64,000 nt of DNA from positions 11,520,758 through 11,584,757 of the forward strand of contig NC_037600.1 in assembly GCF_003073045.1 (NCBI RefSeq), written 5' to 3'. This DNA is from Pomacea canaliculata (taxonomy: Eukaryota > Mollusca > Gastropoda > Architaenioglossa > Ampullariidae). The notes under the pieces were generated by a model that was given only the letters and a program-made list of their open reading frames with translations, did not search any database and was not told where the DNA came from. The position numbers and the translations under genes were made by a program. Positions 15,924 through 62,055 of this stretch are shown one piece after another (position 1 is the first letter of the stretch; every line of letters starts with the position of its first letter).

Positions 15924-16159
15924 TTCGTTTACCTAGTCCCCGAGGTTCACGAAACTAACACAAGTCCTCTTAATTGACTTAAATGACTGACAACACACCT
16001 TACTTGACTAGCGAGACAAGCGGCCAGCATAGACATGCATTCGCTGGCAAGCAACGGTTCACGTGCCGAGCCATGATGTCTTTGTTGAGGTCTGGTACTT
16101 ACCTTGTGATGTCATAATTCGGACTGAGGTGTGTTTTCTCATGACACCTCCACCATTTC

Positions 16160-22164: not shown

Positions 22165-22228
22165 GTACTTACCTTGTGCTGTCAATAATTCGGACTGAGG
22201 TGTGTTCTCTCACGGCCCCTCCACCACT

Positions 22229-22612
22229 CTACCAGCCGCTCTTTAGACTCATCCGCGTTGTCCGTCCCTGTCTTGTCTGGTTTAGTCGGCGCTTTTCCGT
22301 CTCGATGGCGTCGCGTATCCAATTACCCAAGTTCCTATACACGGAGCGGTACTGACATCGTGGCCCTTCAAAATATGAGGAACAAATACATCGACAGTTA
22401 GCATTGGCGGGGTCATTGTCGAAATCCCGCTGGCCCCCGTTTAAGCAGGGAAACACGGAAGCACAATCCCAAGTGTACTCATTCTCCCCTAGCGTCGATG
22501 GCAAAGCCAGCAGCAGCAGTGCGACAAGTGCTGCACGGCTAGCGCCGTACGACACTAACCTAGGACTGCAGCAAGCTTTTAAAGTGGGGTTAGTAGGACT
22601 CATATTGGTCAT
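22229..22612 (-). CDS. Small secreted EGF-like protein, six-cysteine type (copy 3)
   Basis: Predicted 127-residue protein. I chose the ATG at 22612 because MTNMSP is shared by all copies; the frame is open further upstream but has no ATG there. Residues 1-26 form a polar lead-in, 27-42 (AALVALLLLALPSTLG) a hydrophobic signal or anchor core, and 50-86 the EGF-like domain with Cys 50, 56, 73, 75, 77 and 86 and the motif CLNGG. Next comes QYR, a helix-like charged stretch (NLGNWIRDAIETEKRRL) and an NQT glycosylation sequon. The tail is basic, ending MSLKSGW. The donor CACAAG|GTAAGTAC lies at 22165-22175, past the stop. It is the closest relative of the 42.5 kb gene. Likely secreted as a ligand, defence or recognition peptide; the function is unknown. 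Confidence 0.8.
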   Translation of the reverse strand: MTNMSPTNPTLKACCSPRLVSYGASRAALVALLLLALPSTLGENEYTWDCASVFPCLNGGQRDFDNDPANANCRCICSSYFEGPRCQYRSVYRNLGNWIRDAIETEKRRLNQTRQGRTTRMSLKSGW

Positions 22613-22975
22613 GGACAGTGGTCTGGACTTTGTGATCCGTGCTGAGGTCAACGGTCAGCCTGTTCCTCACCTTCGACTGTAGGTGTTCTGTAGATCGTAC
22701 AATACCTTAGACCTTGGAGTAGTTGTAGGAAGGTCTGTTGACATCAACACCACCACGTGGCCCTCTCAACGTGCTAATGCACTTGGTAATTGTTTCGTTT
22801 TCTGACAACAGTCGCCCCTTTTACTCTATATTACCCCTAGAGATAATAACGAGTGTCCTCCAGACGATTGAGCGGGATGATGAACGGGGTTAACCGTGTG
22901 AGTACTGGCTGTAACAAATATTGCTTCTCGGGGCCGTTGTTCCCTCTGGTGTGCGTTGCGTAGAAAGTTCGTCTC

Positions 22976-22982
22976 TTATATA
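22976..22982 (-). promoter_or_regulatory. TATA box of EGF copy 3
   Basis: Minus-strand TATATAAGAGACG, about 365 nt upstream of the ATG at 22612. Transcription would be expected to start some 25-30 nt downstream. The leader carries a CCACGTGG E-box near 22756. Confidence 0.75.
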
Positions 22983-23077
22983 CGCGATGGACACCCAGTC
23001 CACCCTCCTATTCCCACTCATTCATGTTACATTACAATTGTACCCCACCTCCAATCTCGTAGGCCTTCCCTCGGCGC

Positions 23078-23256
23078 TCAGCTTCCAACCAGTCCTTTCA
23101 ATTCTTTACTGTCAGCGGTGGATGGTACGTGTAGCCACCCCAGACACCCGGCACCACGCTGATGTCCCGACCACATCACGTGTTTGACGGATGGAATGGA
23201 GGGGCCGCCCCCAACCTTCTCTGACAGCAGGTAGGCGTAACAGTCCGGGAGTAGAG
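23078..23256 (-). other. Block B, open copy
   Basis: Minus-strand frame open from the upstream edge: LLPDCYAYLLSEKVGGG, then PSIPSVKHVMWSGHQRG, GCLGWLHVPS and LKGLVGS before a stop. The stop position is shared with the 43.2, 49.4 and 56.1 kb copies. The upstream edge lacks an AG acceptor in this copy. It may be a terminal coding exon or conserved promoter-proximal DNA. No domain is recognised. Confidence 0.5.
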
Positions 23257-24572
23257 CAGTAACGAAGGAAACACGATGATTATTTTGTATTATTCCCATT
23301 CTTTATTTTGCTATATTTTCATCAAATCTGTCAGACAAGATCGACTCCCCTTTCTTTACTTCCCTAACACACCTAGCACACCCACACACACACACCTACA
23401 TGAGGCAAGCTTATAGTCTATACCCAGTCTTTCTACTGAAGGTTCTGCTGTCACAGATGCTGTTGACAATTTGTGGAGTTTATTTCAAGTTTTACACAGC
23501 ATTCAAGAAGTAATACCCAGCTTTCATGCCTCGTGTATGGGTTCAACCTAAAGTCAACCCCAGTCATCATCTGTATGAGTGTAAGAACAGTTGACAGTCA
23601 GCATGTATGTACGAGGACCAGCATGATTGAAATCTCAACTTACACGTTTGTTGACTGTCTGTACTTTGCATGATCACATCCAAGTTCAGTTCCCTAAGGT
23701 TTTTTTTATGTTGGTGTATTTTATTCTCAGGTGTGAGAAAATTTGTGTTAGTGTGTGATGCAGAAGCGAGAGTGATATTGGGGACAGGTGAGAATGCAAA
23801 TGTTCAATTTCCATTTTTTCTTGCACTTTGCTGTGATGCTGCCTGCAATGTGTTTGACATTGTGTCTGACTAATTTTTCCTACACTTTTGACTTCTAAAA
23901 ATTTGTAAAGAAACTTTGGGAAACCTTGTCCCCCAACGGCATAGTCAGTAATAACTACAACAGCTGGTACAGTGTCAGTAACTTATTCTGGACGACGAAG
24001 ATCAAAACTTCTTTCAGATTCTTTTTACAGCCTTCTGTTGGTGAGTGTGAACTCGCTCACTGGTATTATGCAATCTAGATATTGAAATTTTCATTTGATA
24101 AAATGCAGCAGCCTTTAAAAGTATCAGTATTGTTAAATTATAGATGAAACGGTAGTATATATGCATATGATTGATCGGTGTTACATTTTGGTTTCTTCGC
24201 TAACCAAATCATTCCTGTCTTCCACTCACTGATGGCGCTCAAGGCAACTGCCGAGATATCTGATGGCAAAGCCAAATCTGTGAGTTGCAAATAGAATCTT
24301 TCAAAGGATGTTTCATGTACTTCTATCGAGAAAATTTATTGCAAGAAAACAAGAGAGAAAAAAGGGTTAAGAAGAATCAAATAGTTGAAGTTTCTGTATT
24401 TATGTGAATAGCGAGTTTCTACACAAAGCTGGTTTCACTCTGAAATCGAGAAGCTCTTGTGTTGTATGCCTTATATTACCCTCAAGTATAAATATTTTTT
24501 GTAGTCTGGCATTTTTAAGAGTGTTATCATAGGAAGTGTCACAAGTCTGACAATTTACTACGGAGTGTCAGT
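23257..24572 (-). repeat. Array spacer, no gene seen
   Basis: Usual spacer order after block B: CA-rich tract (23380-23395), the CGTGTATGGGTTCAACC segment, and the segment with GGTGTATTTTATTCTCAGG. No coding region is supported. Confidence 0.6.
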
Positions 24573-25286
24573 CAACGGCGGCGTTTGGGGGTGGCAAATG
24601 GAGCGACCACCGCAGTACTCGCTCTCGAAGGGGCCCCGCGCTTCAGCCCGGAGGTCATCTTTATGAACTTGTCAACTTTAATAGATTGTGTGTTAAATGG
24701 AAAAATGCTGAGAGGGGCTCTTTAAAATCAGATGGCGTTGCGATTCTATCAATAGAATAAGACATTGCTTCCAATTTGGACTACGAAGACCTCATCAATG
24801 AATTTTCCACACGGAAGGCAAGAAAACTGTATTTCATAAAAAATCATTAATGTAAAACTTTTGGTTTGAAAACTCTGAAACTGGCGTTCATGTGCAGAAG
24901 GCTGCTATGTCCATATACAGCCTAGTCGTCATCTCTTTATTGCATGTCTCGTATTGACTTATTGCTGGCTGTGTTAAACAAGTTGTGACAAAAACATTGA
25001 CGTCCAGAAAACACTTCTAAGTTCTGATTAAGCAAATTATTGAACCCATGTCTTCACGATCAACCCGAAGATAATAACAAGCAGTTTATTAAGCTATCGA
25101 CACCATATTATTTCTCTTTAAGAAAAATCCGGTACTGTCACAGACGGGGGGAAATGTTACAAACAATTAAAACACTAAGTTCGTGGTTATTTCGAGAACT
25201 AGATCCCGCTTATCTAACTGTATATAAATCAGTGCTTCCAGCATCATATCAATAGGGATTTGACACACGTACTCCATTACCCCGCG
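24573..25286 (+). mobile_element. hAT relic (ZMYM-type transposase remnant)
   Basis: Insertion beginning CAACGGCGGCGTTTGGGGG, interrupting spacer that is continuous at about 20370. A plus-strand remnant near 24700-24850 reads KMLRGAL, then ILSIE, DIASNLDYEDLINEF and KARK. This matches the C-terminal end of ZMYM-type hAT transposases, in which the sequence normally runs through a SIE...DFA..KAR pattern. It is interrupted by a stop and lacks the rest of the protein. A related left end occurs at 53432. The target duplication is not clear. Confidence 0.7.
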
Positions 25287-25848
25287 CATCCTTCCATTTG
25301 TAACTTTCAAAAAAATGAGGTTTGTTACAAGGCCTACTTTTTATTTTAAATCATTTTTAAATGTACAACCCGTATGTATTTTCCCTTTGATTCAATGCGT
25401 GTAAAGCTTCTTTCCTTCAAAAAGGCTTTCAGATTGAGAAACAACAAAAACTATTACTGGTTCCTTTTCTGTAGAGAAATCGAATGTGAGCCATCCTCTA
25501 ACAGTATTGTATTGTAGTGTAGATATCAGGCTTCAAAACAGACTGTTTATGTAAATTGAAATTTTAACATTGATGGTGGATGCTGCTAATGTCCTTCAAT
25601 TTTACCTGGAGGGTAGGGAAACAGGTAAAGAGACAAAAGATGTTCCCAGACCCTAATTCGCCATCTTCAAACTTGATCCCCATGTAAAGTATGAGCTGAA
25701 GCTGGTCGGGTGTCTTTTCAGTGCAACCTCATCAAGAAATGTAGTTTTCGTAACAAGTTAAGTAAACAATTTTTCACTATGTCAACTAATTATCATTTTT
25801 TCTCCCAATAATAGCAAAAATTTGACTTGAAATGTTGAGAACAACACA
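25287..25848. other. Mixed spacer and unrecognised sequence
   Basis: Starts as array spacer, then from about 25440 to 25740 carries sequence not found in the other units. Nothing recognisable is encoded; the purpose is unknown. Confidence 0.4.
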
Positions 25849-25947
25849 ATGGCTGGTATCGACGTCTTGGAAAGAATCAAACAAATGGAGTTATCTAAGC
25901 AAATAGCAAAATTAGACGACGACGACGACGACGACGACGATGAGTAG
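25849..25947 (+). CDS. Short acidic reading frame, possible gene fragment
   Basis: An ATG opens a 32-codon frame, MAGIDVLERIKQMELSKQIA followed by KL and a run of aspartates encoded by (GAC)n, ending in E and a stop. After the stop the same frame continues with DDDDAAAADDDDDHEG and a second stop. The mix of a helical lead and an acidic tail looks more like a fragment of a real protein than chance. The parent is not recognised. It could be a retrocopy fragment or a trinucleotide repeat captured by chance. Confidence 0.25.
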   Translation: MAGIDVLERIKQMELSKQIAKLDDDDDDDDDE

Positions 25948-28114
25948 GACGACGACGATGCTGCTGCGGCTGCGGATGATGATGATGATCATGAAGGATA
26001 GTTAAACTGAAGAACAAGAAGTGTGGGGAGCTCTGTAGCTTGTCAGTGATATAGTTTCACAATTCTAGTGCAAAATTAGTTTGATCATTATTAATAATGA
26101 TAGAATTTATCTTAAAGAAACAAATATTCAACTATCGGATAACAACGGTAGCTATAGATGTATAATGAATACTGTTAGTTACAAATAAAATAAAACCTGC
26201 CTTACTTTAGTTTTAGTCTATACTGTTTGATCTCTTCATGCAGCCAAAGAAGTGAAAGCAGCTTGACAAAAAATATTTTCTGAAGCCATCCTCTGTTTTC
26301 ATCTCACAGCCTGCTACTTTCAAGATGAAATCGTTTTCTCTGTGTGTAAATGAATTATACCATCCCGACCCTCGTAGTGATAATTCTCAAGGTTTGGCAA
26401 CACAATGGAAGCAGTACAATGCCATCTGGAAGTCTTTAGTGCAACTAATTATGTCAGTTTGAAGTAGAATGTCTTGCAAATGAACTGTTAAACTATAAGT
26501 AATGTGTAGTGTGTGGCTGTAAGGTGTCACCAACATGTGTAAATCGGATGTAGGTCTTTATACTTATCACGTACATGTCGTTGTATGGTTAATGTGGTGA
26601 TGAGGAGGTTGTCAATAGGTGATAGTAATGTAAAAACGGTCAAAGAAGTTCTTTTTCAAAAAACCTTTTCATATACTTCATGTAGTTCTTTCTTGTAAAT
26701 GTATTGCAAGGAAAAGAGAAGAAAAAATAATTAATTATCAAACTACTTGTAGTGAATAGTGAGTTTGTGTATTACTCAAAAGAGACAACATGTGAGATCG
26801 TGTTTAGTAACTTCTCCTAGTACTCTGAGATAGATGACTGTCATACATTGTACCTCACTAACATCATTCTCCAAGACTACACCTCATCTTTCATCAACGG
26901 AAACTTTTGTGGACCTGAGTAGGTTCAGTAAAGGGACTGGATGGTTAAGTACAGTACAGACAGAAGAGGAATGTGTAAAATGAGCATCACCAGACGACAG
27001 GTCAAGTCAGTAAACGTCACGACATACCGTGAAAAGTCACGTGACAAAGCAGACAGTTACAAACCAACAGTAACACACCCTCCAACATTCAACATGTCAA
27101 ACTCACTCAAGGATAAAATCAGTCCAACACAATATTAGTCAAGATGGATAACTCTTATATTGACATTTTCAGTTCAACATGTCTTCATCACAGACACCGT
27201 TGCCTGTATTATTCACTGTCGACAGTTGATGTCAACAAAGCCGTTGCCGCCTGCTTGGTGTCGTTGGTAAAAACATGAGAACTCCTCCAGGATATTCGTA
27301 TTTTACTGGCTGTAGACAAACACATGAGTAAGTAACTCTATGTATCGGTTATTTCAGTAAATTGGAAATTGTTTCTGACATTTAGTTCTTCTGTGATCAT
27401 TTTACAGTAATCTTACAACTCTTACTTAAAATCTTCATGTCCTTGTAGGGTATTTCAAGATAAGCCGTTTATAAATAAATTTTTAAAACCTGTTCAAATT
27501 TTGTTGTAATTATAATAAATATTCTCAAAGGGCTTTGTAATCAAAACTATTTTATATACATATACAATCTTTAACGACTTGAAAACATATTTTGATGAAT
27601 TTTTCAAACAAAAAAATTCAGCAACAAATAACACTCACAGAACATCTATTGAGACTGAACAAGGAGAATATCCGTAAAAAATAGTCGTGAATGCCGTGCG
27701 GATGTAATGGTAATGTAAACTAGAGACCGGTTCACCTACTTTCTATATTAAGTAATTTTAAACGAGATCACTAGAAGAGTATCGATAATTATAATATTAG
27801 CGATTATTGCACCTCCTAAAATTTGTTTGCAAAAATCTCTCAATTTAATAACAATTTCTGTAATGCACTAAACGAATACTCCTACATTTGGTTGCGTCTC
27901 CCGGAGCCTCGAGGCGGATGAGTACGATATATTTGCTCATTTTGTTTACATATTCACGAAACTAACAAAACTTCTTTTAATTGACTTCCGGAACACAACC
28001 TACATGACTGACAATACACCTTACTTGACTTGCGAGACAAGCGGCCAACATAGACATGCACTCGCCCGGCGACATCGGTTTATTTTCGAGCCATCATGTC
28101 TTTGTTGAGGTCTA
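25948..28114 (-). repeat. Array spacer, no gene seen
   Basis: Usual landmarks, including the palindromic E-box GTCACGTGAC near 27036-27045. The shortened block C frame (MSKYIVLIRLEAPGDA on the minus strand) ends near 27940. No other coding region is supported. Confidence 0.55.
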
Positions 28115-28179
28115 ATACTTACCTTGTGCTGTCATCAATTCGGACTGAGGTGTGTTCTCTCACGACCCCCTCCACCACT

Positions 28180-28545
28180 CTACCAGCCGCTCTCTCTCCG
28201 CGTTGTCCGTCCCTGTCTTGTCTGGTTTAGTCGGCGCTGTTCCGTCTCGATGGCATCGCGTATCAAATTACCCAAGCTCCTATACGGGGAGCGGTACTGA
28301 CATTTTGGCCCGTGGAAGTCTGGCAAACAATCACATCGAGCGATCAAAAGGGTAGGGATGAATTCACTTTCTTCGTCAGCTTCCGTGCCCCCGTTGTAGC
28401 AGCTATTCGCGGAGACCGTCCCCAGCATAGACGGCAACGCCAGCAGCAGCAGTGCGACAAGTGCTGCACGCCTACCGCCGCTCGACACTGACCTAGCACT
28501 GCAGCTCGCTTTTAAAGTGGGGTTAGTAGGACTCATATTGGTCAT
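28180..28545 (-). CDS. Small secreted EGF-like protein, four-cysteine type (copy 4)
   Basis: Predicted 121-residue protein starting MTNMSPTNPT. Residues 27-42 are the hydrophobic signal core. The EGF-like part has Cys 49, 71, 73 and 82: CYNGGT, then CDC, then a FHGPKC end with the glycine typical of EGF domains before the last cysteine. The first and third cysteines of six-cysteine copies are absent, so one disulfide fewer is expected. QYRSPYRSLGNLIRDAIE, an NQT sequon and a basic tail (GRTTRRESGW) follow. The splice donor lies at 28115-28125 with an A in place of G at its distal end. The last part is shortened by 12-15 nt relative to sister genes. Role unknown, probably extracellular. Confidence 0.8.
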   Translation of the reverse strand: MTNMSPTNPTLKASCSARSVSSGGRRAALVALLLLALPSMLGTVSANSCYNGGTEADEESEFIPTLLIARCDCLPDFHGPKCQYRSPYRSLGNLIRDAIETEQRRLNQTRQGRTTRRESGW

Positions 28546-28863
28546 GGACAGTGGTCAGGACTTTGTGATCCGTGCTGAGGTCAACGGTCAGCCTGTTCCT
28601 CACCTTCGACTGTAGATGTTCTGTAGATCGTACAAAACCTTAGACCTTGGAGTAGTTGTAGGAAGGTCTGTTGACATCAACACCACCACGTGGCCTCTGA
28701 ACGTGCTAATGAACTTGATAATTGCTTCGTCCTCTGACCAAAGTTAACCCTCCTTTCCTCTGTATTACCACTAGAGATAATAACGAGTGTCCTCCAGACG
28801 ATTGAGTCGGACGATAGACAGAGCTAAGTGTGTGAGTTGTGCGTTGTGTACAAAGTTTGTCTC

Positions 28864-28870
28864 TTATATA
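28864..28870 (-). promoter_or_regulatory. TATA box of EGF copy 4
   Basis: Minus-strand TATATAAGAGACA context, about 320 nt upstream of the start codon. Confidence 0.75.
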
Positions 28871-28936
28871 CGGGAACAGAGAGGACACCCAGTCCACCAT
28901 CAAATTCCCACCCATTCATTTTACATTACAGCTCCA

Positions 28937-29148
28937 TCACACCTCCAATCTCGTAGGCCTGCCCTCGGATCTGTTTCCAACCAATCCTATCAATTCTTCA
29001 TGGCCAGCGGTGGATGGTACGTGTAGCCACCCCAGACACCCGGCACCACGCTGATGTTCCGACCACCTCACGTGTTTGACGGATGGAATGGAGGGGCCGC
29101 CCCCAACCTTCTCTGACAGCAGGTAGGCCAATAGCAGTCCACGAATAG
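28937..29148 (-). other. Block B, open copy with extended frame
   Basis: Open minus-strand frame AYLLSEKVGGGPSIPSVKHV, then RWSEHQRG, GCLGWLHVPS and LIGLVGN. Unlike other copies, it runs past the usual stop by about 13 codons. A candidate acceptor, TTAATTCAG|CTATTCG, marks its upstream edge. Confidence 0.5.
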
Positions 29149-30030
29149 CTGAATTAACGAAGGACACACGATGATTAGTTTGTATTTTCCCTTTTCTTTA
29201 TTGTGGTTTTTTTTTCATCAGAAGCTGTCAGACAGGATCTACACCCCTTTCTATACCTTACCACCCCCAACACACCCACCCACACATAGATGAAGCAACC
29301 TTATAGTTTATACGCAGTCTTTCTCCTAAAAGTCCTGCTGTCACAGATGATCTTGAAAAATTGTAAAATTTATTTCGAGTTTTTACACAGCATTCAAGAA
29401 GTAATACCCAGTTTATGCCTCGTGTATGGGGTTCAACCTCAGGTTAAGCCCAGTCTACATCATGTATGAGTATATAGGACCAGTTGACAGTCAGCATGTA
29501 TGTACGAGAACCAGTATGACTGAAATCTCAACTTACATTGTGTTGACAGTCTGTACACTGCATGATCACATCCAAGCTCGATTCTTTGAAGTTTGTGTTG
29601 GTTTTATGTTGTTGTATTTTATGCTCAGGTGTGTGAAAATTTGTGTTAGTGTGTGATGCAGAAGCGAGAATGTTGTCGGTGGACAGGTGAGAATGCGGCT
29701 GCGGTGTGTATAGGGCTCGCGAAATCATTAAATTTGTGTGTGTTCCTGCCAATAATGATGGCAGTGCTAGGCAGGCTTGAAGTGCACTTTTTCAAGAGTG
29801 CTAAGAGACTCCCAAACTGTGGCTGACCAACCATGGCTGACTAATTTCAAAGTTGATCATTTTGTATGGCACGACAAGATGTTTTACATATTCCAATGTT
29901 CCTTGACAGTAAAAAGTTCCCTACACCTTATTCACGGCCTTTTTAGCAAAGAAAAGTTGTAACCTTGACCCTTAGGGTTGAGACTGGTAATGCCAGCTAA
30001 GTGTCCTCTTGTTCATAAGATTTTAAAACA
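29149..30030 (-). repeat. Array spacer with an internal deletion
   Basis: At about 29697 the segment GGACAGGTGAGAATGCG is joined directly to the segment with GCGGTGTGTATAGGGCTCGCG. In other units several kilobases separate these. The missing part includes the DNA around the CGACCACGTGATAGC landmark. Nothing coding is seen. Confidence 0.55.
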
Positions 30031-30198
30031 ATAGCGCTTTCTCCTGTAACTAAAAATAGAATGTGACGTCACGCAGCAGAGCATCATGGGATTGCTTTGC
30101 AGTCAAACGCCTTATGTCAATTGAACATTTATTGTTCATTGTACTCTACGCTACGGCGACTGACAAAAAGTGAATTTTTGCTATTAATCTCTGAAACA

Positions 30199-30372
30199 AT
30201 GCTGAAAACAGGAGGAACCAAGCACTGCTGTTGGTGTTTATGTAAATCTGACTCCAGATATCCAGAGCGATTACCGGAGGGGACATTTTTTATTCCATTT
30301 CCAAAACCTGGTAAGACCAGTGACAAAATGACCCATGCAGTGGGAAAGACAACAGGGCAAGTTCAAGACTGA
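30199..30372 (+). pseudogene. THAP-like zinc finger remnant
   Basis: From the ATG at 30199 the frame reads MLKTGGTKHCCWCLCKSDSR and GTFFIPFPKPGK, the first half of a THAP domain with its paired cysteines and the FIPFP segment. After a frameshift near 30350 the other half follows in a second frame, with RRQFLCG and the NTYICSLHF end that supplies the last Cys and His zinc ligands. THAP domains of transposases bind the element's terminal repeats. Confidence 0.75.
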
Positions 30373-31121
30373 CAAAGCAAAGCGCCGGCAGTTTTTATGT
30401 GGGCGATCTGATTTCCAAAATGGGGAGAAAATAACCAGGAACACATATATCTGCTCTCTGCATTTTCGTGGTGAAAAAGACCCAACATCTGAGAAGACGA
30501 ACCAATATTAGCGACACTTACAGAGGAGGAGACACAAAAGCGACAGGGAGGTAACAGGAAGGCTCCAGCGCCACATGGCGACCAAACTGCACATTATCAA
30601 CGTGAACGTGGGAGAAAAAAGCTTCGCAAAGAAAACTCATCATTTCCAGAACCCACAGAACAAAGTGACAACATAACATTTGAAGACGAAGGTGAAGCCG
30701 TGGCTGAGAGTGCATTGCTGAATGTAAGTCGGCTAGCCCAAACCACAAAGCTACACAAACATCTTATGATCATTACATGCTTGGAGCTAAAATCGAAACT
30801 ATGATCATGAGAAACGCTGCTGCAGTAAAAAAAAAAAAATGATCGAAGTGAAACTGAAGTTACCAACAGGATGGACCCAACATTTGTTTTTAAAGACAGC
30901 AAGAATACAAAGTTTTTAGTTGGACTATTTCTCTAGCAGTTTGGCGTTTTGTACACATTTCTTGGTCCAGCAAAATACAACCTTCAATACTGGGACTCCA
31001 AGTGAAATACCAGAGAAACCAACGGGACAAATGATAAGAACACTGGTCCATCTAGGCGTTTTACCCCAAAAGAGGAACTTTTATTACACTTCTGAGACTG
31101 CGAAGGGGACTTTCACTGAAA

Positions 31122-31652
31122 ATGATGGCCTACATGTTTGACACATCTGAATCGTTTGTAAGCAAAATTTGTATCACATGGATTCAGTTTATGCTCCTAC
31201 ACTTCAAGTCTATGAATGTCCCTATGTTCCCAACAAAAGATATAGTTAAAACATCTTTGCCAAGAGTGTTGAAACAGTTTAAAAATGTCAAATGCTCTGT
31301 AGACTGCACAGAGTTCTGTTGCAAGACACCGAGGGATTATGGGCAGCAAGGCAATGTGCATTCCTCTTACAAGAACCATACCACAATGAAAGGACCGATT
31401 GCAGTGACCCCTAAAGGTTCTGCATGTTTTGTTGATATATTTGAGAAATGTGGCATTCTACAACACATTGAACAAGATGTTTTGCTTGTGGACAAAGGGT
31501 TTAAAGTGTGGGATTTGCTTTTGTCAAGACAGGCTACTATAAAAATCCCTGCATTTCTAGGTAAGCGAGCTAGCCTGTCTGCAGAACAGATGGATACAAG
31601 GAGGGTAGCCAAGGCACGAATTCATGTAGACCGCTTTAATGAAAGACTGTAA
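31122..31652 (+). pseudogene. DDE transposase core (DDE_Tnp_4 type) fragment
   Basis: A 176-residue open frame. The first catalytic aspartate is in KCSVDCTEFCC and the second in VLLVDKGF. The third acidic position, normally glutamate in the HVER motif of this family, reads HVDRFNERL here. SYKNHTTMKGPIAVTPKG lies in the expected place between the first two. The upstream half (TIRTLVHLGVLPQKRNFYY, in another frame from about 30990) belongs to the same protein. The enzyme would cut and paste the element, but frame breaks and the acidic-residue change suggest loss of function. Confidence 0.82.
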
Positions 31653-32173
31653 AAGTTCATGCTTCTCAGTAGATATCCCCCTAAGCCTCAGTTGTGTTGC
31701 CTCCCAAATAGTTTTTCTTGGATGCAGTTTGTTAAATTTTCAGAGTAGCTTATGCATTTAAAAGCAAGTCAAATGCTAATGTGCGCAATAGACAGGTCAA
31801 AGATAGAAATGTGGGAGTAATTTTTACCAAAACAGACTAAAAAGAATTTTTGGTGCAAAAATAATGGTCAACCTATCAATTCATTCAGGGGCATATGACA
31901 GAAAAGTATTGTAAATAAATCTGTATAGTAATTAATATTATAGGTTACAAGTACTGACTGTACTGTTCTGCTTCATAGTAAACAAAGAGAAAAATAAAAA
32001 ATCAAAACCGCATTTTTACACGTTCACGTTTTGTTTTGTTTAACAATAAACTGCACAGCAACGCATTCGCTGCAAACGCTGGTGTAGTACATGTGGGGAA
32101 TATATTTGTCCGCTTTGCATTCCCAGAAACCCTTGCGCGGCTAGATCGTGACGTCATCTGTGGAAAGCGCCAT

Positions 32174-34427
32174 TCTAGTACAAAATTAGTTTGATCATTA
32201 TTAATATTGATAGAATATATCTTAAAGAAACAAATATTCAACTATCGGATAACAAAGGTAGCTATAGCTGCCTAATTAATACTGTTAGTTAAAAATAAAA
32301 AAAACCTGCCTTACTTTAGTGTTAGTCTATACTTTGTCTAATCTCTTCATTCAGTCAAAGAAGTGAAAGCAGCTTGACAAAAAATATTTTCTGAAGCCAT
32401 CCTCTGTTCTCATCTCACAGCCTGCTACTTTCAAGATGAAATCCTTTTCTCTGTGTGTGAACTAATTATACCATCCTAACACTCGCAGGCTGTTGACAGT
32501 CTGTACTCTCCATGATCAGATCCAAGCTCAATTCCTTAAAGTTTGTGTTGGCTTTATGTTGGTGTATTTTATGCTCAGGTGTGAGAACATTTGCGTTAGT
32601 GTGTGATGCAGAAGCGAGAATGATATCGGTGGACAGGTGAGAATGCGAATATTGCTGTGATGCTGCCTGGGACGTGTTAGAAAGTCCGACTAATGTTTCC
32701 TACAGATTTGACTTCTAATAAATTGAAAAGAAACTTTGGGAAACCTTGTCCTATAATGGCATAGTAAGTAAAAACTACAACAGTTGGTACAGTGTCAGTA
32801 ACTTATTCTGAACGACGAAGATCAAAACTTCTTTCAGATTCTTTTTACAGCCTTCTGTTGATGCGTGTGACTCGCTTACTGGTATTATACAAGTCTAGAT
32901 ATTTAATTTTTTATTTGAGAAACAGCAGCCTACAAAAGTATCGTTATTGTTAAATTACAGATGAAACGGTACCGTTTATATATAGAGAGATATATGTGCA
33001 TACGATTGACAGGAGTAACATTTTGACAATAATTTAAAAATCAGACCATTCCAGTCTTCATCTCACTGATGGCGCTCAAAGCAACTACCGAGATATGTGA
33101 TGGCAAAGCCGAGCCTGTGAATACCAAATAGAGTCTTTCAAAAGATGATTCATGTACTTTTTTCGACAAAATTTATTGCAAGAAAGAAGTGTAGAAAAAA
33201 GGGGTTAAGAAGAATCAAATAGTTGAAGTTTCTTTATTTATGTCAATAGCGATTTCCTACACAAAGCTAGTTTCAGGGTTTCATTAGGACAAGAATTTCT
33301 GTTCACTTATGTTGTCTTCTCTAGCTATGTGATCTCATGACACAACACCATGTCGAGGATTGTTTTTTTGTTTTTTTTTTATCATTGTCGTCACGATCCA
33401 CAACAGATCATCTCTTCCGTCCTCACCACTGACCGGCCAGTCATCGGGTTTGTCAGACAGGACATGGTAAGGGTTGTGTCAGGATGTCTGCTGCCGATGT
33501 CCTGACACTGTGTGAGTGGGAGAGAGAGTGAAACAAAGAGATTGTGTGTTTCTAAGTTATTATTTCACTCCATCCCTTATCAGTTTATTCCATATTCATG
33601 GCCTGTTAGTATAAACATGGAGAGCCTGACCACGTGATAGCATTCCGCGCTATACGAGCATCACGAGTTTTATTTTTATCTTTGATGATACCTGGTGTCT
33701 TCATAGCGATAGTTCAATATACAGCTACGATATTAAATATAATCTTTTAATATTACTTAGGATATCTTCGATTTCTTTCCAGATGCCTATTGACTGCATT
33801 TTTAGAAAAAAAAAACTTTTATAGCAACACACAGCATTTTTAATGTTTGTTGTTTGTGTGCTTGAACACAACATGTTGTTGATAGAACGTTGGAGCTAGG
33901 ACTGGTATAGCATCTTACCCGGCGGTGCTACTCATAGGATGTTTGTTTACAGCCCTGATGATAGAGCCGCTTCACTTTATTCCCTATTCGTGGTCTGGTA
34001 GTAAATGTTTATTGCAGGGGAGGGAAACGCTTGGCCTGCGGTGTGTATAGACTCGTGAAATCATTAAATTTGTGTGTGGTCCTGCCAAGGCAACAGCAGG
34101 CGGAATTTAAAATTCAAGAAATCTTAGAGCTTTGCATGACATCTTAAATTTATACGAAGCGAATCATAATAATACAGTAAATAATGATGGCAGTGCTAGG
34201 CAGGCTGGGAGTGAACTCTTGCAAGAGTGGTAAGACACTTTCCCAAACTGCGGCTGACCAAACATGGTTGACTGATTGTAAAGCTGATTAGTTTGTATGG
34301 CACGACAAGATGTTTTAAATATTCAAATGACCATCGACAGTAAAAAGCTCCCTACACCTTTTTCACGGCATTGTTAGCAAAGAAAAGCTGTAATCTTGAT
34401 CCTTAAATTTGAGACCGATAATGACAG
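32174..34427 (-). repeat. Array spacer, no gene seen
   Basis: Follows the transposon with the segment TCTAGTACAAAATTAG that also occurs at 26060. It then runs through the common landmarks up to the LTR at 34433. No coding region is supported. Confidence 0.55.
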
Positions 34428-34432
34428 CTATG

Positions 34433-34887
34433 TGTTACGACCGTAGCGGTAACTTGGCTCGTTTAAAGATCTGAAAATCTGCGGTGTCACACTTTCCTGT
34501 ACAAAGTCACTTCAGTCATCCGTTGAACAGAAGATAGAACACGTATACAGCGTCTCACACTGTAATATTTCTCAGTATTATTTCAATGTTCAACAACTCA
34601 ACGTTATAACCACATAATCAGCGGACTGACACACAGGCTACTTATCCTCTTATTTTCAACTCACACAGAGTACTACTTCCAACTCACACAGAGTACTACT
34701 AACAACTCAGAAAATCGAATACCGACACTAGGTCTACCCAGCCCTTTTTATAGATCCCTTCAAAAATGCTAAAAATGCATAAATAAAAAAAAAAATATTA
34801 AAAAAATTAAGACGCAGTACGCCCTGGCCTTGACATCGCCACTTCCGCCAAGGCCTCGTCAAACTAAAAATACTCAATTTCGTAACA
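34433..34887. mobile_element. Solo LTR with intact target duplication
   Basis: 455 bp with ends TGTTACGA...TCGTAACA (perfect 8-bp inverted ends) and the 5-bp direct repeat CTATG on both sides (34428-34432, 34888-34892). The other units have this site empty. It contains a TTTTTATAG promoter-like motif and an A-rich AATAAA-like stretch. The 5-bp duplication fits Ty3/gypsy or Bel/Pao elements. No internal coding part is present. Confidence 0.85.
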
Positions 34888-34892
34888 CTATG

Positions 34893-36900
34893 TGTCCTCT
34901 TCTTCATAAGATTTTAAAACAATTGAGCATAAGAAGTTAAGCAAATAGAAATATGTGCAACAAGATCCGCATCACATGTTTTTCTGATGTAGTTTTCTTA
35001 TATTGAAATCTGAAACTCCTTCCGACATCAGGATGAGGTGTGAAAGGTGAGACGGAAGTGTGGCACTGATTGTTGACAGTCCCTGCGATAAAATAAAATC
35101 TTCCTATACGCTCTTTGTAAATTATTAAACATTAGATGAGAGTTCTTGAATTATCTAAACTCAGTCTGAGTAATTCTCCATAAAGCCCTATGTATCAAAC
35201 AGCAGTCACCGCTGATGGCATCACATTAAAAAAAAGTGGAACCAATGTCCAGTATCTCCGATAAAAGTTGATTTTCTGATGCAATCCTTAGTTTTCACAG
35301 CCTCCTACTTTCAAGATGAAACATTTTTCTCTGTGTGTAAACTAATTATACCATCCTAACCCTCGTAGCCACAATTCTCAAGTATTGGCAACAGCAGTAC
35401 AATGCCATCTGGAAGTCTTTAGTGCAACTAATTATGTTAGTTTGATGTAGAATGTCTTGCAAATGAACTGTAAAACAATAAGTAATGTGTAGTGTGTGGC
35501 TGTAATATGTCACCAACATGTGTATATGGGATGTAGGTCTTTATACTTATCACGTACATGTCGTTGTATGGTTAATGAGGTAATGTGGAGGTTGTCAATA
35601 GGTGATAGAAATCTAAGAACGGTCAAAGAAGTTCTTTTTCTAAAAACTTTTTCATATTTTTCAGGTAGTTCTTTGTCGTAAATGTATTGCAAAGAAAAGA
35701 GAAGAAAAAATAATTATCAAACTATTTCTCGTGAGTAGTGAGTTTGTGTATTACTCACAAGAGACAACATGTGTGATTGTGTTTAGTATCTTCTCCTAGT
35801 ACTCTGAGATAGATGACTGTCATACATTGTTCCTAACTAACATCATTCTTCAAGACTATACTTCATCTTTCATCGACGGAAACTTTTGTGGACCTGAGTA
35901 GGTTCAGTAAAGGGACTGGATGGTTAAGTACAGGATAGACAGAAGAGGAAAGTGTGAAATGAGCATCACCAGAGGACAGGTGAAGTCAGTCAACGCCACG
36001 ACATACCCTGAAAAGTCACGTGACAAAGCGGACAGTTAGTTCCAAACCAACAGTACACACCCTCCAACATTCAACATGTCAAACTCACTCAAGGATAAAA
36101 TCAATCCAACACAATATTAGTCAAGATGGATAACTCTTATATTGACATTTTCAGTTCAACATGTCTTCATCACAGACACCGTTGCCTGTATTATTCACTG
36201 TCGACAGTTGATGTCAACAAAGCCGTTGCCGCCTGCTTGGTGTCGTTGGTAAAAACATGAGAACTCATCCAGGATATTGGTATTTTGCTGGCTGTAGACA
36301 AACACATGAGTAAGTAACTCTATGCATCGGTTATTTCAGTAAATTGGAAATTGTTTCTGACATTTATCTTCTGTCATCATTTTACAGTAATCTTACAACT
36401 CATACTTAAAACCTTCATGTCCTTGTAGGGTATTTCAAGAGAAGCAATTTATGAATAAACGTTGCAAAACTATTCAAGTTGTTTAATTACATGATAAATA
36501 TTCGCAAAGTGCGTTGCAATCAAAATGCTTTTATATACAATATTTAACGACTGAAGTACATCTTTTGATGATTGTTCACCAACAAACAAACAAAAAAAAT
36601 CACACCCACAGAACATAGATTCAGACTGGACAACCAGAATATCCACACAAAAAAACTGTGGAGTGAATGCCGGGCGGATGCAATGGTAATGTAAACTAGA
36701 GGGCGGTTCACGTGACTTCAATAAGTATTAAGGAATTATAAACTAGATGACTAGAAGACTGTCGATAATTATAATGTTAGCGATTATCGCACGTCCTAAA
36801 ATTTGTTGCAAAAATATCTCGATTTAATAACAATTTGTCTAAAACACTAAACTGAGTGTTGTTACTGGGGTGTACGCTGGGTGCTGGGAGTCATGGTTAC
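34893..36900 (-). repeat. Array spacer, no gene seen
   Basis: Common spacer landmarks, including the GTCACGTGAC palindrome near 36017. No coding region is supported. Confidence 0.6.
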
Positions 36901-36994
36901 CTGTGCGAGCCAATGAGTGTAAGTGTTGCATACACCTACATGTCGGTGCATCTCCCGGAGTCTCGAGGCGGATGAGTACGATATCTTTGTCCAT
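36901..36994 (-). other. Block C, third copy
   Basis: MDKDIVLIRLETPGDAPTCR on the minus strand, open to LHSLARTG across the CACAG|GTAACC donor-like site. One residue differs in the first 20 from the 10.4 kb copy. Confidence 0.35.
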
Positions 36995-37220
36995 TTCGTT
37001 TACCTATACCCGAAGGTTTACGAAACTAACAAAAGTCCTCTTAATTGACTTACATGACTGCCAATACACCTTACTTGAGTTGCGAGACAAGCGGCCAGCA
37101 TAGACATGCATTCGCCTGGCGACATCGGTTCACTTTCGAGCCATGATGTCTTTGTTGAGGTCTAGTACTTACCTTGTGCTGTCAATAATTCGGACTGAGG
37201 TGTGTTCTCTCACGACACCT

Positions 37221-37619
37221 CTACCCTTCTACAGGCCGCTCTTCAGACTCATCATCCGCGTTGTCCGTCCCGGTCTTGGTTGGTTTATATGCTGTCGTGC
37301 CCAATAAAGTAAGTAAGTTACGCTTAGCATCAGGCGTTACCGGATGTCCGAAACGTTGATCACATTGTGTCCCGACGAAGGGTGGCACACATATACATCG
37401 TTTTATATTTGGGACGATTACCCCAGGCATGACTTCACTATCCATATCATATACCGTACCTCCGTTGTAGCAGCGAAACTCGTCATCAGTCCCCAGCATC
37501 GACGGCAACGCCAGCAGCAGCAGCAGTGCGACAAGTGCTGCACGACTAGCGCCGCACGACACTGACTTAGGACTGCAGCTCGCTTTTAAAGTGGGGTTAG
37601 TAGGACTCATATTGGTCAT
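37221..37619 (-). CDS. Small secreted EGF-like protein, subtype B (copy 5)
   Basis: Predicted 132-residue protein from the ATG at 37619. Residues 27-43 are the hydrophobic signal core, with one extra leucine. The EGF-like part has four cysteines (50, 75, 77, 86): CYNGGT, CIC, then FVGTQC. After it the sequence leaves the family norm: DQRFGHPVTPDAKRNLLTLL replaces the QYR/helix/NQT region. The tail is acidic (TDNADDESEERPVEG), read in a different frame of the same DNA that gives other copies a basic tail. The broken copies at 10.8, 16.2 and 62.1 kb are of this subtype. The donor lies at 37165-37175 after the stop. Likely secreted; role unknown. Confidence 0.8.
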   Translation of the reverse strand: MTNMSPTNPTLKASCSPKSVSCGASRAALVALLLLLALPSMLGTDDEFRCYNGGTVYDMDSEVMPGVIVPNIKRCICVPPFVGTQCDQRFGHPVTPDAKRNLLTLLGTTAYKPTKTGTDNADDESEERPVEG

Positions 37620-37937
37620 GGACAGTGGTCAGGACTTTGTGATCCGTGCTGAGGTCAACGGTCAGCCTGTTCCTCACCTTCGACTGTAGGTGTTCTGTAG
37701 ATCGTACAATACCTTAGACCTTGGACTAGTTGTAGGAAGGTCTGTTGACATCAACACCACCACGTGTCCCTCTCAACGTGCTAATGCACTTGGTAATTGT
37801 TTCGTCCTCTGACCAAGTTAACGCTCCTTTCCTCTGTATTACCGCTAGAGATAATAACGAGTGTCCTCCAGACGATTAAGTCGGACGATAGACAGAGCTA
37901 AGCGTGTGAGTTGTGCGTTGTGTACAAAGTTCGTCTC

Positions 37938-37944
37938 TTATATA
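37938..37944 (-). promoter_or_regulatory. TATA box of EGF copy 5
   Basis: Minus-strand TATATAAGAGACG context, about 320 nt upstream of the ATG at 37619. Confidence 0.75.
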
Positions 37945-38044
37945 CTCGAGCAGAGTGGACACCCAGTCACCCTCAAATTGCCACCCATTTATGTCACATT
38001 ACAGCTCCATCACACCTCCCATCTCGTAGGTCTGCCCTCGTATC

Positions 38045-38220
38045 TCGGTTTCCAACCAATCCTATCAATTCTTCATGGCCAGCGGTGGATGGTACGTGTA
38101 GCCACCCCAGACACCCGGTACCACGCTGATGTCCCGACCACCTCACGTGTTTGACGGATGGAATGGAGGGGCCGCCCCCAACCTTCTCTGACAGCAGGTA
38201 GGCGTAACAGTCCGGAGTAG
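38045..38220 (-). other. Block B copy
   Basis: Conserved block with a good acceptor-like edge (TTGTTGCTGCAG|CTACTCC). A one-base deletion close to that edge changes the frame relative to the acceptor in this copy. The CYAYLLSEKVGGG frame is otherwise recognisable. Confidence 0.5.
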
Positions 38221-41200
38221 CTGCAGCAACAAGGACACACGATGATTAGACTGTATTTTTACCATCCTTTATTTTGCTATAGCTTCACCAGAAGCTGCCA
38301 GACAAGATCTACTCCCCTTTCTATACCACCTCACCCACCCCCAACACACCAACACACACACCCCTAGATGAGACAAGCTTATAGGTTATACGCAGTCTTT
38401 GTCTTGAAGGTTTTGCTGTCACACATGCTGTTGACAATTTCTGGAGTTTATTTCAAGTTTTACACAGCATGCAAGCAGTCATACCCAGAGTTCATGCCTC
38501 GTGTATGGGGTTCAACCTAAAGTCAAGCCCAGTCATCATCATCAGTATGAGTGTAAGAACAGTTGACAGTCAGCATGTATGTTCGAGGACCAGCATGACT
38601 GCAATCTCAACTTACAGGCTGTTGACAGTCTGTACTTTGCATGATGACATCAAAACTCAATTCCTTAAAGTTTGTGTTGGCTTGATGGTGGTGTATTTTA
38701 TGCTCAGGTGTGAGAGAATTTGCGTTAGTGTGTGACGCAGAAGCGAGAATGATATCAGTGGACAGGTGAGAATGCGAATGTTCAATTTTCACTTTTCTTG
38801 CACTTTGCTGTGATGCTGCCTGGACGTGTTACAAAGTCTGACTAGTTTTACCTACAGCTTTGACTTCTAATAAATTGAAACCTTGTCCTATAATGGCATA
38901 GTAAGTAAAAAACTACAACAGTTGGTACAGTGTCAGTAACTTATTCTGGACGACGAAGTTCAAAACTTATTAACGATTCTTTTGACAGTTTTCTGTAGGT
39001 GCGTGTGAGCTTGCTCACTGGTATTATGCAATTCTAGACATTTAATTTTTTATTTAAGAAATTACAGCAGCCTACAAAAGTATTGTTATTGTTAAATTAC
39101 CGATGAAACGGTACCGTTTATATATAGAGAGATATATGTGCATACGATTGACAGGAGTAACGTTTTGACAATAATTTAAAAATCAGACCATTCCAGTCTT
39201 CATCTCACTGATGGCGCTCAAGGCAACTACGGAGATATCTGATGGCAAAGCCAAGCCTGTGAATATCAAATAGAGTCTTTCAAAATATGATTCATGTACT
39301 TCCTTCGAAAAATTTATTGCAAGAAAGTAGTGTAGAAAAAAGGGGTTAAGAAGAATTAAATACTTGAAGTTTCTTTATTTATGTCAATAACGATTTCCTA
39401 CACAAAGCTGGTTTCACTCTAGTATATCTTATTGGACAAGACTTTCTGTTCACTTATGTTGTCTTCTCTAGCTATGTGATCTCATGGCACAACACCGTGT
39501 CGAGGATTGTCTTTTTTTTTTTTTTGTATCATCGTCACCCCGATCCACAACAGATCATCTCTTCCGTCCTCACCACTGACCGGCCAGTCATCGGGCTTGT
39601 CAGACAGGACATGGTAAGGGTTGTGTCAGGATGTCTGGTGCCGATGTCTGACACTGAGTGAGTGGGAGAGAGAGAGTGAAACAAAGAGATTGTGTGTTTG
39701 TGTTATTATTTCACTCCATCCCTTATCAGTTTATTCCATATTCATGGTCTGTTAGTATAAACATGGAGATCCTGACCACGTGTTTGCATTCCGCGCTAAC
39801 GAGCATCACGAGTTTTATTTTTATCTTTGATGATACCAGGTGTCTTTATAGCAATAGTTCAATATACAGCCACGATATTAAATATAATGTTTTAATATTA
39901 CTTAGGATATATTCGATTTCTTTCCAGAAACCGCTTGATTGCATTTTTCGAAATAAAACATTTTATAGCAACACACAGCATTTTTAATGTTTGGTGTTTG
40001 TGTGCTTGAACACAACATATTGTTGATAGAACGGTGGAGCTAGGACTGGTATAACCTCTTACCCGGCGGTGCTACTGCAAGGATGTTTGTTTGTTTACAG
40101 CCCTGATGATAGAGCCGCTTCACTTTATTCCCTATTTGTGGTCTGGTATTAAATTTTTATTGCAGGGGAGGGAAACGCTTGGGCTGCGGTGTGTGTAGGT
40201 TTCGCGAAATCATTAAATTTGTGTGTGGTCCTGCCAAGACAACAGCAGGCGGAATTTAAAATTCAAGAAATCTTAGAGCTTTTTCGTAGCAGCTTTAATG
40301 TATATGAAGTGAATCATAATAATACAGTAAATAATGATGGCAGTACTAGGCAGGCTGGGAGTGAACTCTTGAAAGAGTGCTAAGACACTTTCCTGAACTA
40401 CTGCTGACCAAACATGGCTGACTGATTTCAGAGTTGATAAGTTTGTATGGTATGACAAGATGTTTTAAATATTCAAATTACCCTTGACAGTAAAATGTTC
40501 CCTACACTTAATCCTTAGGGTTGAGACTGATAATGCCAGCTCTGTGTCCTCTTGTTCATAAGATTTTAAAACAATTGAGCAGGATCTTCGATGAAGGTTG
40601 ATTTTCTGAAACAATCCATACTTTTCACAGCTTGCTACTTTCAAGATGAAATCCATTTCTCTGTGTGTAAACTAATTATACCATCCTAACCCTCGTCGCC
40701 ACAATTCTCAAGTATTGACAACAGCAGTACATTGTCATCTGGATGTCTTTAGTGAAACTAATTATGATAGTTTGATGTAGAATGTCGTACAAATGAACTG
40801 TTAAACTATAAGCAATGTGGAGTGTGTGGCTGTAAGGTGTCACCAACATGTGTATATGTGATGTAGGTCTTTATACTTATCACGTACATCTCGTCATATG
40901 GTTAATGAGGTAATGTGGAGGTTGTCAATAGGTGATAGTAATCTATGAACGGTCAAGATAAGTTCTTTTTCAAAAATATTGTTCTTATATTTTATGTAGT
41001 TCTTTCTTGTAAATGTATTGCAAGGAAAGGAGAAGAAACAATAATTAATTATCAAACTATTTCTCGTGAATAGTGAGTTTGTGGATTACTCAACAGAGAC
41101 AACATGTGTGATTGTGTTTAGTAACTTCTGAGAAAGATGACTGTCATACATTGTTCCTCACTAACATCATTCTCGAAGACTACACATCATCTTTCATCGT

Positions 41201-42427
41201 CGGAAACTTTTGTGGACCTGAGTAGGTTCAGTAAAGGGACAGGACAGACAGAAGAGGAATGTGTGAAATGAGCATCACCATACGACAAGTGAAGTCAGTC
41301 AACCACACGACATACCGTGAAAAGTCACGTGACAAAGCAGACAGTTAGTTCCAAACCAACAGTACACACCCTCCAACATTTAACATGTCAAACTCACTCA
41401 AGGATAAAATCAGTCCAACACAATATTAGTCAAGATCGATAACTCTTATATTGACATTTTCAGTTCAACATGTCTTCATCACAGACACCGTTGCCTATAT
41501 TATTCACTGTCGACAGTTGATGTCAACAAAGCCGTTGCCGCCTGCTCGGTGTCGTTGGCAAAAACATGAGAACTTCTCCAGGATATTGGTATTTTGGTGG
41601 CTGTAGACAAACACATGAGTAAGTAACTCTATGTATCGGTTATTTCAATAAATTGGAAATTGTTTCTGACATTGAGATCTTCTGTCATCATTTTACAGTA
41701 ATCTTACAACTTATACTTAAAACCTTCCTGTCCTTGTAGAGTATTTCAAGAGAAGCCGTTCATAAATAAATGTTTAAAACCTGTTCAAATTTTGTTGTAA
41801 TTATATGATAAATATTCACAAAGGGCTTTGCAATCAAAAGGATTTTATATATATATATACAATCTTTAATGACTTGAATACATACCTTGATGAATTTTTA
41901 CCAACAAATAAAAAAAACAAACAAATAACACTCACAGAACATTTATTGAGACTGGACAAGGAGAATATCCATAAAAAAATTGTCGAGTGAAAGCCGTGCG
42001 GATGCAATGGTAATGTAAACTACAGGGCGGTTCCCCTACTTTCTATATGAATTAATGAATTTTAAACGAGATCACTAGAAGACTATCGATAATTATAATG
42101 TTAGCGATTATTGCACCTCCTAAAATTTGTTGTAAAAATTTCTCGATTTAATAAAAATTTCTGTAATGCACTAAACGAATACACCTACATTTGGTTGCGT
42201 CTCCCGGAGCCTCGAGGCGGATGAGTACGATATATTTGCTAATTTGGTTTACCTATTCCCCGAGGTTCACGAAACTAACAAAACTTCTTTTAATTGACTA
42301 ACGGAACACACCCTACATGACTGACAACACACCTTACTTGAGTTGCGATACAAGCGGCCAACATAGACATGCATTCGCCCGGCGACATCGGTTCACTGTC
42401 GAGCCATGATGTCTTTGTTGAGGTCTG
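38221..42427 (-). repeat. Array spacer, no gene seen
   Basis: A near-complete spacer without recognised insertions, useful as the reference form for the other units. Landmarks in order: CA-rich tract (38350), GGTGTATTTTATGCTCAGG (38690), GACCACGTG (39774), GTCACGTGAC (41326), GTTGCCTATATTATTCACTG (41490). No recurring coding frame is seen. Confidence 0.6.
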
Positions 42428-42491
42428 GTACTTACCTTGTGCTGTCAACAGTTGGGACTGAGGTGTGTTCTCTCACGACCCCTCCACCGTT

Positions 42492-42875
42492 CTACCAGCT
42501 GCTCTCTAGACTCATCCTCGTTGTCCGTCCCTGTCTTGTCTGGTTTTGTCGGCGCTGTTCCGTCACGACGGCGTCGCGTATAAAATCACCCAAGTTCATA
42601 AACGCACTGCGGTACTGACATCGTGGCCCTTCATAATCTCGGGAACAAATACATCGACAGTTAGCCATGAGGGGGTCATGGCCGTAATCCCGCTCGCCCC
42701 CGTTTAAGCAGGGAAACACTGCATTACAATCCCAAGTGTACCGATTCTCCCCTAGCGTCGATGGCAACGCCAGCAGCAGCAGTGCGACAAGTGCTGCACG
42801 ACTAGCGCTGCACGACACTGACCTAGGACTGCAGCTCGCTTTTAAAGTGGAGTTAGTAGGACTCATATTGGTCAT
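42492..42875 (-). CDS. Small secreted EGF-like protein, six-cysteine type (copy 6)
   Basis: Predicted 127-residue protein from the ATG at 42875. Signal core at 27-42 (AALVALLLLALPSTLG); Cys 50, 56, 73, 75, 77 and 86, as in the 22.2 kb gene; CLNGG motif; QYR; NLGDFIRDAVVTEQRR helix-like segment; NQT sequon; tail MSLESSW. Against the 22.2 kb gene, the part after the signal differs at about 21 codons that change the residue and at one that does not, while flanking DNA is almost identical. The leader is about 100 nt shorter than in most copies. The donor lies at 42428-42438. Probably secreted; function unknown. Confidence 0.82.
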   Translation of the reverse strand: MTNMSPTNSTLKASCSPRSVSCSASRAALVALLLLALPSTLGENRYTWDCNAVFPCLNGGERDYGHDPLMANCRCICSRDYEGPRCQYRSAFMNLGDFIRDAVVTEQRRQNQTRQGRTTRMSLESSW

Positions 42876-43116
42876 GGACAGTGGTCGGGACTTTGTGATC
42901 CGTGCTAAGGTCAACGGTCAGCCTGTTCCTCACCTTCGACTGTCGGTGTTCTGGAGAGATCGTACAATACCTTAGACGTTGGACTAGTTGTAGGAAGGTC
43001 TGTCTTCAAAACGATCGAGCCGGACGATAGTGTTAACCGAGTGTATTGACTGTAACAAACACTGCTTCTCCGTGCCGTTGTTCCCTCTCGTGTGCGTTTG
43101 GTAGAAAGTTCGTCTC

Positions 43117-43123
43117 TTATATA
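43117..43123 (-). promoter_or_regulatory. TATA box of EGF copy 6
   Basis: Minus-strand GCGTATATAAGAGACG, about 245 nt upstream of the ATG. The distance is shorter because part of the leader is deleted near 43005. Confidence 0.75.
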
Positions 43124-61995: not shown

Positions 61996-62055
61996 GTACT
62001 TACCTTGTGCTGTCAACAATTCGGACTGATGTGTGTTCTCTCACGACCCCTCCAC

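Follow-up and report, generated by a model that had tools for sequence, protein, structure and literature searches.

On C11 of the Pomacea canaliculata assembly, a tandem family of small genes, each a single open reading frame (ORF), probably diversifies in the EGF-like core and C-terminal helix of its A-type copies, while exchange between copies would keep the signal parts and flanks alike. The initial annotation had proposed diversifying selection from a hand codon count between two of the copies, 3 and 6. This proposal is supported by the dN/dS (omega) of that pair and by a selected class of sites across the family, and is qualified by a raised silent divergence in the mature part. By this divergence, many of the variable cassettes appear either older than their flanks or faster mutating.

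The tandem cluster and its gene unit

Searched at the protein and the DNA level, the genome shows at least 11 copies (nos. 0-10) in one C11 cluster of ~80 kb, at about 11.515-11.596 Mb, and at least one further copy on chromosome 12 (C12). The window, the whole stretch of 64,000 nucleotides analysed here (C11:11520758-11584757), holds nine copies, six of them intact (3 to 8), and copies 0 and 10 flank it, one on each side. The signal part of copy 0 is out of frame, and copy 10 is open from a later Met. The cluster also holds a tail-only fragment beyond the 11 numbered copies. Within the window, the copies and the hypervariable segments of copies 3 and 6 are as follows.

Copy 1, 10770..11150, reverse strand: start codon altered, signal and mature parts out of frame with each other; mature EGF part still open
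Copy 2, 16152..16530, reverse strand: broken by in-frame stops and several one-base indels
Copy 3, 22229..22612, reverse strand: intact 127-aa ORF, A type, six mature cysteines
Copy 3 hypervariable segment (codons 43-110), 22283..22486, reverse strand
Copy 4, 28180..28545, reverse strand: intact ORF, four mature cysteines, likely recombinant
Copy 5, 37221..37619, reverse strand: intact ORF, B type, four mature cysteines, acidic tail
Copy 6, 42492..42875, reverse strand: intact 127-aa ORF, A type, six mature cysteines
Copy 6 hypervariable segment (codons 43-110), 42546..42749, reverse strand
Copy 7, 50059..50460, forward strand: intact ORF, six mature cysteines, acidic tail
Copy 8, 56575..56955, forward strand: intact ORF, six mature cysteines, basic tail
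Copy 9, 62055..62405, reverse strand: broken; second half open

The C12 copy is intact and 156 aa long; compared with copy 6, its upstream region is 69% identical over about 220 b. Among the 11 copies, unique one-base indels are most numerous in copy 2 (window 15980-17230), with five deletions and three insertions, which could reflect decay or uncorrected long-read error. Relative to copy 5, copy 1 has a short stretch in another frame between two opposite indels, and this stretch may represent decay, since copy 1 is broken.

In these genes, the signal and mature parts lie within one uninterrupted ORF, and recurrent elements surround it, given here for copies 3 and 6.

TATA box TATATAAGAG of copy 3, 22973..22982, reverse strand: 370 nt 5' of the copy 3 ATG; putative promoter element
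TATA box word of copy 6, 43114..43123, reverse strand: 248 nt 5' of the ATG
Splice-donor-like GTAAGT of copy 3, 22167..22172, reverse strand: 56 nt past the copy 3 stop; putative splice site
Conserved upstream block of copy 3, 22854..23291, reverse strand: 88% identity to copy 6; taken as non-coding

The TATA box word is exact in 10 of the 11 cluster copies, copy 7 having a variant; among the intact copies of the window, the five with an exact match carry it 248-371 nt upstream of the ATG. Each copy would presumably be transcribed from this region. The splice-donor word AAGGTAAGTA is likewise present in 10 of the 11 cluster copies, 31-57 nt 3' of the stop in the six intact window copies. A conserved upstream ORF (23078-23299) was considered as a coding sequence and was not taken as such, because it matches no Pfam model and copy 4 has it with a shifted frame. 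Upstream-region pieces that lack an adjoining EGF copy lie at window positions 13059-13385, 47444-47626, 6509-6572 and 18630-18694, so parts of the unit seem to have moved or been lost apart.

Fragments of mobile elements also lie in the window, on the forward strand: a retroelement integrase at 6999-8114 (Integrase_H2C2 E 2.4e-20, rve E 2.4e-13) and a DDE_Tnp_4 transposase at 31122-31652 (E 4.3e-18). The whole window has no Rfam match at the gathering threshold and no tRNA by a scan for such genes. RING/B-box ORFs are found on both sides of the cluster (two scanned, L014:281-1396 and L019:4081-5319), with similar ones, by eye, in the flanking stretches L015, L018 and L020; this class of proteins includes immune genes.

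Replacement and silent change in the mature part

Copies 3 and 6 have open frames of 127 codons and can be compared without gaps; they are one pair, chosen as striking. In mature codons 43-110, 21 codons are replaced and one differs silently, exactly the hand count of about 21 replacements and one silent Ser up to the NQT sequon. The sole silent codon (codon 90, Ser TCC/AGT) involves three base changes, and seven of the 21 replaced codons carry two changes, where the annotation had spoken of several. Its estimate for the signal part, about five replacements and three silent differences, is also exact for codons 1-42 (replaced 9, 14, 19, 22 and 23; silent 13, 25 and 36). Tail codons 111-127 add two replacements and one silent difference.

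By NG86, the mature part of this pair has Nd 29 over 160.3 sites and Sd 2 over 43.7 (dN 0.207, dS 0.047), and the signal part has dN 0.057 and dS 0.093. Replacement change in the mature part exceeds silent change there (p = 0.017), change in the aligned non-coding flanks (63/677; p = 0.0017) and replacement change in the signal part and tail (p = 0.0006; all Fisher, one-sided). Maximum likelihood (ML) gives a mature omega of 4.84 (LR 6.28, p = 0.012) when codon frequencies are taken from the pair itself and 4.63 (p = 0.016) when they are taken from the family, and omegas of 0.71 for the signal part, 0.88 for the tail and 2.2 (p 0.068) for the whole frame, the pattern of high mature and low signal dN/dS that the initial annotation had anticipated. 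As evidence of selection, this pair alone is modest: when only mature codons with a single change are counted, there are 14 replacements and no silent change, which has a chance of about 0.03 under neutrality.

Assembly or long-read error could in principle create differences between copies. The assembly's description reports PacBio reads with Pilon correction (PMC6129957), and copies 1 and 2 have five and eight unique one-base indels in the 11-copy alignment. However, copies 3 and 6 have none, which makes such error unlikely for these two, and their differences are open-frame substitutions that spare the mature cysteines and are denser in the mature part than in the flanks. We therefore give error very little weight as a source of the divergence.

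Across the family, codon tests leave out copies 2 and 9 and use copies 0 and 1 only by their open mature parts. The ML mature omega exceeds 1 as a point estimate in 31 of the 36 pairs of cluster copies, with p < 0.05 in six of these (two saturated), and no pair lies below 1 with p < 0.05. All nine pairs with the C12 copy have omega below 1 (0.02-0.64, the lowest saturated), and this copy was kept out of the site models because it is too distant. The NG86 values of distant pairs do not serve as main evidence here, since codons with multiple hits and unsure alignment push them toward 1.

Site models were fitted with an in-house script to 65 codons of copies 3, 6, 4, 7, 8 and 0 (the last by its open mature part). 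Here the analysis that the earlier proposal had envisaged for the open copies brings out a large selected class: M8 vs M8a gives LR 26.2, with omega+ 3.15 at 64% of sites, M2a vs M1a gives LR 26.0, and the mean omega by M0 is 1.605 (LR 5.6). The M8 vs M8a LR is 34.4 on a star tree, 19.0 with copy 4 removed (mean omega 1.60) and 8.9 with copy 4 and the loop removed (mean omega 1.23, LR 0.7). For the EGF half it is 31.0 (mean omega 2.36), for the C-terminal half 6.2 (mean omega 1.26, LR 0.5), for the B copies 5, 10 and 1, with the frame-shifted columns of copy 1 removed, 9.7 (mean omega 0.98), and for nine copies on a star tree 40.5 (mean omega 1.57). The signal part of seven copies, as a control, has omega 0.74 and LR 2.5 (p 0.056). 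The mean omega is not clearly above 1 for the C-terminal half, for the A copies without copy 4 and the loop, or for the B copies; in all three, the site-class test alone is significant. In the A copies, then, omega rises above 1 for the mature part but not for the signal part, and the mean of the B copies does not show this.

None of 32 neutral simulations reached the observed LR (0/15, maximum 11.0; 0/17, maximum 9.1); 17 of the 32 used a faster fit, which on the real data gives 25.8. These maxima indicate that the chi-square p values are too optimistic, and neither recombination nor multi-base changes, both of which can inflate site tests, were part of the simulated data.

Probable exchange between copies

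Distance between the copies is highest in the mature block. Averaged per 60 alignment columns, it reaches 0.32-0.51 across this block (columns 1140-1380) and falls to 0.06-0.18 over the signal part and the adjacent flanks (columns 360-1140 and 1380-1800), climbing again further out. At identical residues, silent differences pooled over non-independent pairs come to 161 per 518.3 mature sites (36 pairs, nine copies) and 58 per 599.0 signal sites (21 pairs, seven copies). The ML dS tree lengths of mature and signal parts are 0.536 vs 0.169 for copies 3, 4, 6 and 7, 0.336 vs 0.130 for copies 3, 6 and 7, and 1.777 vs 0.385 for seven copies, so that mature silent change is 2.6-4.6 times that of the signal part. 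This raised silent divergence calls for a second process besides selection, either exchange making the flanks uniform or locally faster mutation.

Exchange between copies is supported by copy 4, whose nearest neighbours are copies 5 and 1 in the 5' flank and copy 3 in the helix, tail and 3' flank. More broadly, its signal part and 5' flank are closer to the B copies, and its helix, tail and 3' flank to the A copies. In tree tests on copies 1 to 7, the 5' flank with the signal part speaks against the A grouping by p-AU 0.022, although KH and SH give 0.058, and the tail with the 3' flank speaks against the B grouping (p-AU 0.0095). Once joined to the EGF N-part, the 5' segment favours neither grouping (p-AU 0.21), and nor do the two middle segments. 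Together, these affinities make copy 4 a likely recombinant. By extension, gene conversion or unequal crossing-over might keep the signal part and flanks alike around an older, selected cassette, and exchange would now and then join halves of different cassettes, as in copy 4.

The same observations could be read without positive selection, if the mature part were unconstrained and older and gene conversion kept the flanks and signal part young. The raised mature silent divergence, the discordant copy 4, the mean omega of 0.98 in the B copies and NG86 dN/dS values near 1 in many distant pairs agree with this reading. Yet omega exceeds 1 by M0, M2a and M8 at an LR that none of the 32 neutral simulations reaches, the cysteines are kept, and in copies 3 and 6 the mature dS (0.047) is lower than the divergence of the flanks (K 0.100) while dN is 0.207. 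We regard an account without selection as unlikely.

Alternatively, a mutation rate raised locally, and only in the cassette, may supply the variation, a mechanism put forward for the mature exons of conotoxins. The cassette has elevated dN and dS alike, as do Conus mature exons and the trappins of some species, according to the two reports (PMC3862624, PMC2831891). However, copies 3 and 6 have no silent excess. Counted at identical residues, copies 3, 4, 6 and 7 have 19 silent differences per 126.4 mature sites vs 18 per 176.3 signal sites, and the mature figure falls to 13 per 126.4 without two Ser TCC/AGT comparisons; the larger A-B excess can be explained by exchange without a special mechanism. 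Such a local rate increase is, in our estimate, improbable, and the preferred account remains diversifying selection on the core and helix of the A-type copies, which would act together with exchange.

The predicted protein, its relatives and possible roles

Each gene would encode a protein that combines a conserved, hydrophobic signal segment with a disulfide core of EGF-like type and ends in a helix and a tail. In copy 6, the hydrophobic stretch AALVALLLLALPS follows a 26-residue lead and is likely a signal segment, a membrane anchor being possible; the proteins are presumably secreted.

C56, N58, G59, C75, C77, G83, C86 and R89 are invariant in all nine aligned copies, and their neighbours change. 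The EGF pattern C4-x-C5-x8-C6 with a conserved glycine is present in all nine as C75-x-C77-x8-C86 with G83, and the core shares C-x-NG and C-x-C-x8-C, and putatively a hairpin region, with the EGF modules of Notch, factors VII and IX, Del-1, EGF and neuregulin (profile and model). The canonical six EGF cysteine places are incompletely filled. A canonical EGF module has its third cysteine shortly after NGG, whereas in the nine copies the 11 residues that follow NGG (NGA in copy 0) contain no cysteine; instead, the A copies carry an extra cysteine two residues before C75, and the B copies have neither this extra cysteine nor the first one. The first and extra cysteines are both present in copies 0, 3, 6, 7, 8 and C12 and both absent in copies 4, 5 and 10, a concordance of nine out of nine copies readable at both places; the copy 1 piece is without the extra cysteine and starts too late for the first to be read. 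The first cysteine shifts in place among copies, which suggests that the two pair as a disulfide, common descent of the types explaining part of the concordance.

Against solved structures, the family profile matches EGF modules, with E values from 5e-5. In the members scanned, every Pfam model stays short of its cut-off; the best EGF-type E values are 0.01 (copy 9 piece) and, among the nine aligned members, 0.028, below the cut-off. The AlphaFold model, weak at a mean pLDDT of 63, shows a pair of short strands and places a helix at 91-125. Its Foldseek matches are EGF modules, the best being those of Notch and of factors VII and IX (probability about 1.0); the lowest E is 0.019, and none has E <= 0.001.

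A protein search with copy 6 alone returned none of 26 candidates at E <= 1e-3. With a profile, a search of 5.8 billion proteins gave 38 matches at E <= 1 among 7993 scored candidates. Only one of them, P0001, matches along most of the protein, and apart from an additional Gln it equals the C12 copy; all 37 others contain Pfam domains of EGF type. P0001 derives from three contigs of at most 1503 b marked lgn, which we take to be assembled public reads, so that its presence there would by itself be no proof of expression. A search with P0001 found itself alone among 57 candidates. By these protein searches, the family appears to be without a full-length relative outside itself. No match named as a conotoxin is among the 38 profile matches, most of which are unnamed. 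Among the literature matches listed, from a search with most subscription journals outside it, we recognised no described EGF-like or reproductive family of Pomacea and no tandem EGF-like family of molluscs.

The core may present a binding surface that follows a fast-changing partner, and judged from the sequence the products would be extracellular binding peptides in an arms race, with defence as the first candidate and reproduction as the second. An effector or recognition peptide against parasites or microbes is a reasonable, if tentative, assignment; a reproductive or egg protein is somewhat less likely, and a defensive toxin-like peptide or one acting on the EGF receptor is doubtful. Either of the first two would give a secreted-type family of an invasive pest snail a candidate role in defence or reproduction.

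Several known families share parts of this organisation. Conotoxin superfamilies likewise combine a conserved signal with a hypervariable, cysteine-framed mature part in which Dn and Ds are both raised, as described for the mature exon in Conus (PMC3862624). In contrast to the single ORF of the snail family, conotoxin genes have introns between the signal and most of the mature part, and an exon-by-exon mechanism therefore cannot explain the boundary seen here. The profile search gave no sequence relation between the two, and any venom role of the snail family would be hypothetical. Since the variable part begins and ends within one ORF, this locus can help to separate selection, gene conversion and local mutation, a question that exon borders confound in conotoxins. 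Mytilus CRP-I is also molluscan, tandemly duplicated and composed of a conserved signal and a positively selected cysteine-rich mature part (PMC10138031); it differs in being a knottin, in its propeptide and in its six conserved cysteines, whereas the snail family has an EGF-like core with four or six cysteines and a helix. In mammalian trappins, as in the snail family, the coding part outpaces the flanks, and in trappins also the introns, with an accelerated dn, joined by ds in armadillo and pig (PMC2831891); trappins differ in their WAP domain, their mammalian hosts and their intron-bearing genes.

More speculatively, and with a low probability in our view, the cluster might be a conotoxin-like diversity generator on an EGF-type scaffold, within a single exon and in a snail not known for venom. 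It would combine borders kept by exchange, a selected cassette, a disulfide whose cysteine pair comes and goes, and a tail that switches frame between acidic and basic through upstream length changes. If true, the set of recognition peptides could differ from one animal to the next.

The tail DNA after the helix is indeed read in two frames among the copies, and the switch accompanies upstream length differences that are not multiples of three. The acidic frame is used by copies 5 and 7 (charge -5 and -6 in the last 18 residues) and by copy 0 (charge 0), and the basic frame by copies 3, 4, 6, 8 and 10 (charge +2 to +5 in the last 18 residues). The two frames can be compared in the following examples.

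Basic tail frame of copy 3, window 22230-22298
Acidic tail frame of copy 5, window 37221-37300
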